Part shown: piece after piece, positions 38,443 through 40,231 of the stretch
How the letters are laid out: every line of letters begins with the position of its first letter
Numbering within the stretch: position 1 is the first letter of the stretch
Assembly (NCBI GenBank): GCA_003246625.1
Contig: QJZR01000007.1
Location: 1 to 64,000 of the forward strand
From: Alphaproteobacteria bacterium
GTDB lineage: Bacteria; Pseudomonadota; Alphaproteobacteria; Rhodospirillales; Rhodospirillaceae
Length of the DNA: 64,000 nt
Reading direction: 5' to 3'
Translations under genes and position numbers: made by a program
Notes under the pieces: model-generated
What the model was told of the DNA's origin: nothing
The model's database searches: none
The model's input: the letters and a program-made list of their open reading frames with translations, nothing else

Positions 38443-38490
38443 GGCCGGGGCGCCGCCCCGGAGCTGGGGGCTTGGTTGGGTTCCCGAGCT
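38443..38490. repeat. Truncated copy of the mosaic intergenic repeat at the edge of the AT-rich island
   Basis: gccggggcgccgccccggagctgggggcttgg immediately after the nfeD-like stop. Confidence 0.4.
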
Positions 38491-38615
38491 TATAGGCACA
38501 TTCTTTTTAATTGCTGGGATGCAGCAGATTTGCGCGTGTTTGCCGTGGATGTTTCTGCCGACAAGTTTATCGTTGATGAAGTTTTGTTTCCTTGTCTCTA
38601 AAGCCGTAAGGAGGG

Positions 38616-40082
38616 GTGATGATGACGGTGTTCGGAACGGAATTTCCGCTTTGCAGAGAAATTACCCGTGGAGAGTTTATTTCACAGGTTATTCTCTGGC
38701 TTAGGGGCATGGAATATAGCTCAGTGCTAAATGATGTCGAGGGAAGAGATCTTGACGTGAATGATGCGTGTCTGGTTTCAACATCCGGAGAGACTCTACG
38801 ATTTAGGTGCTTTGATGATTGTGATGGGTACGACGGGATTGGTTTTAGGCATGATTTTCCGGATTCCGATGGTCGTGTTTGGAGAACAGAAGTTGTATTG
38901 AGGAAATCGTGTGACGGGGCGGGAGATAACATTGCTAGGTTCAGGACGGAATGCCGGGCGGCTGACCCTAAGGCAAAACTTGAGACGCCGAAAAAACCAT
39001 ATCTCATTAAAAGTATAATATCAGATTCATGGCCTGGAGATGATGGGCTTATGTCAGTTTCTGATAAACCAATATTCTTGTTGGATTGCCCGGACGACCT
39101 TGAGATAGCAAGAATCATATGTAATGGATCGGCGTCTACATATCTTCCTATTATATATATCTCATCTATTTCGAAAATGCGTTGGCTGATAGGCCGGGAG
39201 AAAATTGAGAAGCTAGCCTATGACTTGGGTGGTGTTGCTCATGTTGTCGTTGAGCCGGATAGGTTGTTTTCATTGAAGCTTAGAGATTTGACTGATGGTG
39301 GTAATATATATGGTGGTCATATAGGCGTATTTGCTCCAGGAATGGGGCTGATGAAGCGGCTGTTTGTGGGGTGGGAATTTTCTGATGAGAGGATGCTTAT
39401 TCATAATCTGCGCTTGATATCTATAAACATTCGCTCGCGTATGGCCTCTCTTGGATGGGATTGGATTGATCTGCAGGAAGCTTGTTTGCGCTCCCAGCGT
39501 CTGCGAGAGCGGAATAAGCTTACAGATGCTGAATTTGAGGAAATGTATTTGGAAGAAATATGCGAAAAGAATGAGCGTATAGATGAGCTAAATAAAAGAA
39601 TATCAGAGATGATGATTGCGTCGGCACAAACAAGCGTTTCTTGTGATCAACTTATGGATCAAAAGCTCGTAAGAAAAGTTGGTCCAGAAATATATGATGG
39701 AGAATTCTCTGATAGAATTAGGCTCGCGGTGGAGACGTGCCTTTCTCATAGAGAATTGGACGGCCTTGACAAGAGAAGTATTGCCGTATTTCGCAGGGTG
39801 ATTGAGGCGTATCCCTTCTCGAGGCAGCTTGACGAGCTTAAGAGTGATCTCAAACGAGCTTGTAAGGACCCAAAGAGGATGGCAGGAGAAATTACGGCAC
39901 TCCTAAGAAGACATGGGTATGCAGAGAAGTCAGATAATAAGCATATTCGGTTGCAGGCGAATGATGGTTATATGGGTCTTGATAGTATAACCCTGCCTAA
40001 GACACCAAGCGACTATCATTCTTCAAAGAATCAGTGCAAGGATATAGAAAAAACGCTGGGCATAACAAAATTATCAAATTAG
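38616..40082 (+). CDS. Orphan 488-aa protein of unknown function, HicA-like C-terminal segment
   Basis: Only AT-rich gene in the window; C-terminus LLRRHGYAEKSDNKHIRLQANDGYMGLDSITLPKTPSDYHSSKNQCKDIEKTLGI resembles HicA/YcfA fold; remainder unrecognised. Confidence 0.75.
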   Translation: MMMTVFGTEFPLCREITRGEFISQVILWLRGMEYSSVLNDVEGRDLDVNDACLVSTSGETLRFRCFDDCDGYDGIGFRHDFPDSDGRVWRTEVVLRKSCDGAGDNIARFRTECRAADPKAKLETPKKPYLIKSIISDSWPGDDGLMSVSDKPIFLLDCPDDLEIARIICNGSASTYLPIIYISSISKMRWLIGREKIEKLAYDLGGVAHVVVEPDRLFSLKLRDLTDGGNIYGGHIGVFAPGMGLMKRLFVGWEFSDERMLIHNLRLISINIRSRMASLGWDWIDLQEACLRSQRLRERNKLTDAEFEEMYLEEICEKNERIDELNKRISEMMIASAQTSVSCDQLMDQKLVRKVGPEIYDGEFSDRIRLAVETCLSHRELDGLDKRSIAVFRRVIEAYPFSRQLDELKSDLKRACKDPKRMAGEITALLRRHGYAEKSDNKHIRLQANDGYMGLDSITLPKTPSDYHSSKNQCKDIEKTLGITKLSN

Positions 40083-40231
40083 ATCTTTCGTGGAAGTTAT
40101 TTGCCGGATTTGGGGGCTTCCCAAGCGCCTTCGAGAACCTTCTTGACAATCGTCAATTTTTAACGATTCCAATAGTCGTTGCCGCCGCGCCGCGCGGGCG
40201 GCGTGGGACGGTTTTCGGGACAGGGGTTTTC

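Follow-up and report, generated by a model that had tools for sequence, protein, structure and literature searches.

The island and its gene

The locus analysed here raises a simple question: what is a lone AT-rich gene doing in GC-rich DNA, and could it be, as the initial annotation supposed, a laterally acquired single-gene defence system or toxin? The window, that is, the whole stretch of 64,000 nucleotides that was analysed, has a mean GC content of 0.672. Within it lies an AT-rich island of about 1.6 kb (GC 0.436), which holds one gene, encoding a protein of 487 aa. Scanned per 1.5 kb, the 64 kb reach their GC minimum (0.434) at this gene, the next lowest value elsewhere being 0.579. GC3 is 0.41 in the island gene, compared to 0.86 to 0.94 in three neighbours. 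No second gene was found, the island gene being the only gene-like open reading frame of the island, so that its initial description as a single-gene AT-rich island stands. The features discussed below are collected in Table 1.

Table 1. Features of the island and of its gene, in window coordinates (residue numbers of the domains are counted from position 38619)
Feature	Position	Strand	Basis and remarks
Imperfect 16-bp direct repeat, left copy	38458..38473	+	island edge; lead only
Ribosome-binding site AGGAGG	38609..38614	+	sequence; 7 bases 5' of ATG 38622
Island gene	38616..40082	+	486 to 488 codons; likeliest start ATG 38622, alternatives GTG 38616 and ATG 38619
N-terminal beta-rich domain, residues 2-120	38622..38978	+	model, Foldseek, hhalign; part of the module common to HEC-07
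Thioredoxin-like domain without CxxC, residues 126-256	38994..39386	+	model, Foldseek, conservation
Long helix, probable coiled coil, residues 303-338	39525..39632	+	model; coiled-coil matches
Helical linker region, residues 346-415	39654..39863	+	model
C-terminal HicA-like domain	39876..40058	+	PADLOC profile, structure models, hhalign, Foldseek
H442 codon	39942..39944	+	aligned with the HicA GSH histidine; conserved in 63/64
Imperfect 16-bp direct repeat, right copy	40104..40119	+	island edge; 14/16 identical to left copy; lead only

The relatives of the protein begin at the same place as the ATG at 38622. Upstream of the gene, a consensus scan of its strand gave no sigma-70-like promoter, scans of this kind being weak evidence. 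Directly upstream lies an open stretch of 37 codons (38488-38601, AYRHILFNCWDAADLRVFAVDVSADKFIVDEVLFPCL*), which could be taken for the 3' terminus of a further AT-rich gene. A two-gene system, of which this stretch would be the end of the second gene, was considered and dropped, because no credible match to the stretch was found in the homologue loci or in plasmids. The edges of the island carry an imperfect direct repeat; in controls, a repeat as good was reached in 1 of 300 shuffles and in 5 of 300 random pairs. This repeat is only a lead, because the 16-bp motif is not rare by itself and the repeat was absent from the two other islands checked.

A broad family with patchy, lateral spread

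Sequence searches of Pfam, NCBIfam and the PDB gave no family match for the window protein, and to that extent its initial description as lacking a recognisable family was correct. It is not an orphan, however, because full-length relatives were found, and these make up a broad family. A profile scan retrieved 75 loci in bacterial genomes, spread over Pseudomonadota, Planctomycetota, Acidobacteriota, Verrucomicrobiota and one Bacillota metagenome-assembled genome, while viral contigs contributed 11 relatives and plasmid records 8. The window protein alone, used as a query against genome contigs, gave no match, whereas the profile query did find loci. Using tblastn, a full-length homologue 46% identical to the window protein was found on a Skermanella plasmid, and homologues about 25% identical on Klebsiella Col plasmids of 5.9 kb. 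In the tree, the window protein groups with copies from Rhodobacterales prophages, among others, in an alphaproteobacterial clade that is well supported. Two different family members gave no match when searched against GenBank phage records, and two members of the prophage type gave none in E. coli genomes.

In the taxonomic family of the window, only 2 of 76 genomes carry the gene, at different sites, which supports the lateral acquisition first proposed from base composition. The second copy, from the same genus and 44% identical to the first, also stands alone in an AT-rich island, at another site (GC 0.43 to 0.52, compared to about 0.70 around it). Across the loci, the gene lies at least 5 GC points below its flanks in 69 of the 77 measurable loci (median -11 points), and at least 5 points above them in none. 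Upstream of the island, a block consisting of def, rmuC and a 145-aa gene is conserved within the genus, while the yecH-like gene found downstream sits elsewhere in the genus. A clean empty insertion site could not be demonstrated in the genus, because the genes on either side of the island are not adjacent to each other there.

Several copies are broken (L003, L004/L044 and L007). The Stenotrophomonas copy has an internal TAG and lies beside an apparent tRNA gene, the Ancylobacter copy is cut short beside a transposase gene, and a truncated copy was found on a Citrobacter KPC plasmid.

Domain layout of the protein

An AlphaFold2 model of the window protein was built from 66 family sequences (mean pLDDT 87.7). 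It places, in order, a beta-rich domain, a domain of thioredoxin topology, a long stretch that probably forms a coiled coil, a helical region and, at the C-terminus, a domain of alpha-beta-beta-beta-alpha layout. In Foldseek searches the beta-rich domain shows a weak resemblance to Bet v 1/START-like proteins, with a TM-score of 0.26 only. Thioredoxin-like matches were obtained with probabilities of 0.98 to 0.99 and a TM-score of 0.60; their placement on the second domain is a reading of the topology. Conservation within the family is highest in this domain (LPIVYVS...G.AHVVVEP...N.YGG), with nine positions (P177, Y180, S182, G205, A207, H208, E212, P213 and G233) invariant across 64 sequences; the CxxC motif is absent from all 66. 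Full-length Foldseek searches also matched portal proteins and PR-10 proteins; these matches were set aside, since their TM-scores are low and they amount to noise or at most to a hint about the first domain.

A HicA-like C-terminal domain

The initial annotation had likened the last residues to HicA and called for profile and structure searches of that region. These were run, and PADLOC, hhalign and Foldseek agree on HicA. The PADLOC HicA-like profile matches the window protein with an E-value of 1.6e-5 over residues 426-479 (in its 488-aa reading), and matches 27 of the 66 relatives at 1e-3. A stand-alone member of this PADLOC family exceeds the cut-off of the Pfam HicA_toxin family; the window protein itself has no match to Pfam HicA (PF07927) at the curated cut-off, and one of its relatives scores 13 of the 27 bits needed. 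When the tail was aligned with HicA using hhalign, the whole domain was colinear and H442 fell on the histidine of the HicA GSH motif, with p-values of 4e-4 to 3e-3 and a probability of only 11 to 36%; the HicA side of this comparison consisted of some 20 sequences collected by a HicA search, including a few misread fragments. A model of the isolated tail, compared with the PDB by Foldseek, had as its first match HicA of Streptococcus pneumoniae (probability 0.99, TM-score 0.64, rmsd 2.5) and as its fourth HicA of Burkholderia pseudomallei (probability 0.94, TM-score 0.69), the entries matched being 5yrz_B and 6g26_E. The E-values of these two matches are weak (0.03 and 0.24), which is expected because the domain has only 60 residues. 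On these profile and model comparisons, a HicA fold for the tail is supported.

The GSH histidine is catalytic in HicA. If the tail acts likewise, the near invariance of H442 in the family would fit an RNase. The domain might also bind RNA without cutting it, the gene then being an accessory regulator or stress factor, for instance a thioredoxin-like protein with a binder of the dsRBD type. The HicA fold is indeed a dsRBD fold, catalysis here is putative, and the SDxR/N motif of the tail differs from the classical HicA motif. We nevertheless hold this to be rather unlikely, since the HicA-type histidine is almost invariant, and since lateral mobility and the defence neighbours described below do not point to a host regulator.

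HicA toxins are mostly familiar as the small proteins paired with HicB. As stated initially, no hicB-like antitoxin lies next to the island gene, and neither HicB (PF15919) nor HicA (PF07927) had a match anywhere in this genome assembly. Membership of a type II HicAB system was therefore rejected, on the lack of an adjacent hicB, of a PF15919 match in the genome and of a second island gene. An Rfam search for an RNA antitoxin gave no credible match.

A front module homologous to that of HEC-07

HEC stands for Hma-embedded candidate, and HEC-07 is part of PADLOC-DB 2.0.0. Antiviral activity has been reported for several HECs; no literature text on HEC-07 itself was found. The HEC-07 profile matches 51 of the 66 relatives at 1e-3 and, where the extent is shown, covers the front part only. 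Using hhalign, bona fide HEC-07 proteins (L156-L159) were aligned with the front of the family over 205 columns, with a probability of 98.5% and an E-value of 2e-15, whereas the tails could not be aligned (probability 0.7%). From this profile comparison we report, as a new finding, that the N-terminal 250 residues or so of the family are homologous to the N-terminus of HEC-07. Since the fronts are homologous and the C-termini differ, one front module is combined with two alternative tails.

When the front module was used as a query, 9 of 399 Pseudomonadota genomes had a match. Four of these matches were of the HicA type, of which one ended ahead of the tail and another had an internal stop; four were HEC-07, and one was a divergent protein with an HEC-07-like end. 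A divergent alphaproteobacterial protein of 515 aa (L161) matches both halves of HEC-07 in pieces and is perhaps a further branch of front-module proteins. The window protein itself has no match to the HEC-07 profile, the PADLOC search giving HicA-like alone, and the HEC-07 profile PDLC04161 has no match in the window genome. Current HEC-07 profiles miss the window branch, and this part of the family is therefore probably under-annotated.

Genomic contexts

Mobile or defence contexts were expected for the homologues. There are clear examples of copies within a prophage, on a plasmid or next to defence genes, but many stand alone among housekeeping genes. Over the 137 nearest neighbours of the family loci, no recurring partner gene was found; the commonest Pfam families were a phage cement protein (6) and ThyX (3). 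PADLOC matches among neighbours, as raw counts, included PDC-M03B (4), Mad, CapP, RmrA, PD-T4-6 and PDC-S19, and also PDC-S06; some of these are generic, UvrB for instance scoring as PbeA. Other neighbours are housekeeping genes, such as those for an H+-pyrophosphatase and a ribonucleotide reductase. The Klebsiella 5.9-kb plasmid that carries a copy is mobilizable. The copies in Rhodobacterales prophages border the head-and-portal block on one side, and the opposite side carries an AIPR/AbiU-like, Type ISP or N6-methylase gene.

Other arrangements were also observed. In the Rhodobacterales prophages of L071, L075, L095, L096 and L097, the head-portal block is conserved while the cargo to either side of it varies, which looks like a hotspot for defence cargo. 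In three Rhodobacterales genomes (L065, L066 and L067) the gene is directly 3' of thyX, with a gap of 5 to 40 bp. On four prophage contigs (L090, L091, L092 and L094) a conserved pair of genes, encoding 326-327 aa and 248-253 aa and probably PDC-M03, lies just upstream. At L068 (4366-6675) a PDC-S06/AAA_13 ATPase adjoins the copy, which also has on either side one of two paralogous small proteins; these share an ALSWL.xAE motif and are HEPN-like by eye.

These contexts bear on the idea that the protein is a fused toxin-antitoxin, in which the front would serve as antitoxin in cis and the HicA tail would only stabilise the plasmid, prophage or island. A HicA fold without HicB and the copies on small plasmids and prophages would suit such a role. 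A toxin and its antitoxin in one chain, however, cannot easily punish gene loss, because both parts vanish together; moreover, most copies are chromosomal and alone, and defence genes adjoin several of them. We regard maintenance as unlikely.

Proposed function

We propose, with a probability of about 0.6, that the gene encodes a horizontally mobile anti-phage or anti-plasmid protein, which acts on its own and whose effect would be abortive infection or growth arrest. Its two N-terminal domains would form a module that is both sensor and restraint in cis, and the coiled coil may assemble the protein into an oligomer. Upon meeting an invader signal, the front module would release the C-terminal HicA-like domain with its H442, which would cut or bind RNA, so that translation stops. 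For this reading we count the HicA tail, the HEC-07 front, the patchy AT-rich copies, the mobile and defence contexts and the lack of HicB or any partner; against it, the lone copies among housekeeping genes, the hhalign probability of 11 to 36%, the absence of a match in GenBank phage records and H467 of the window copy, at a tail position where 62 of 64 sequences have arginine.

That residue, the missing promoter and the visibly broken copies elsewhere (internal TAG, truncation beside a transposase gene, truncation on a KPC plasmid) suggest that the family may be defensive while the window copy might be inactive, a decaying remnant of a mobile insertion, but this copy has a full-length open frame and a good ribosome-binding site, its HicA part is the best-kept region in comparison with two relatives (0.56 to 0.58 identity), and promoter scans are weak evidence, which leaves the remnant quite improbable.

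Beyond the single-gene defence protein that we favour, a wider reading, which we put forward tentatively and at somewhat less than even odds, is one of modular single-gene immunity: a sensor module would restrain interchangeable C-terminal killers in cis, without an antitoxin gene. The beta-rich and redox-dead thioredoxin-like domains would form the sensor, attached to a HicA-type RNase in one branch and to the HEC-07 domain in the other. A HicA restrained within one protein would offer a handle on how fused RNase toxins are held without an antitoxin.

Comparison with known systems

Compared to the HicA toxins (PF07927) of type II HicAB systems, the domain found here is the tail of a protein of about 490 aa, lacks HicB and scores below the Pfam cut-off. 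The initial annotation had considered HicA fused to large N-terminal domains unusual. Such proteins are already known: among the 14 HicA contexts of Gerdes 2024 (PMC10865869), classes 13 and 14 come closest to the window family in the text of that article, class 13 being fusion proteins of 340-440 aa with a mainly alpha-helical front and class 14 having an SMC front. As there described, they resemble the window family in that a larger protein ends in a HicA domain and no separate antitoxin is present; the window family differs by its beta-rich and thioredoxin-like front. Class 13 as described does not accommodate the window protein, which has about 487 aa and a mixed alpha/beta front, and the SMC-HicA fusions of class 14 were set aside since the P-loop is absent from 65 of the 66 members, window protein included. 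Judged by the text descriptions, the window family fits none of the 14 published classes (PMC10865869); a member may stand unrecognised in the sequence table of that article.

CapRel-SJ46, as summarised in the same article (PMC10865869), would follow the one-polypeptide logic proposed here, with a toxin, a restraint in cis and a phage sensor; its toxin fold and target are different, and the likeness is a functional analogy only. With HEC-07, the likeness extends to homologous N-terminal 200-250 residues followed by a coiled coil, in a single large gene, whereas the C-terminal domain is non-homologous to the HicA-like one of the window protein. The common front module may provide a handle on what proteins of the HEC-07 type sense.
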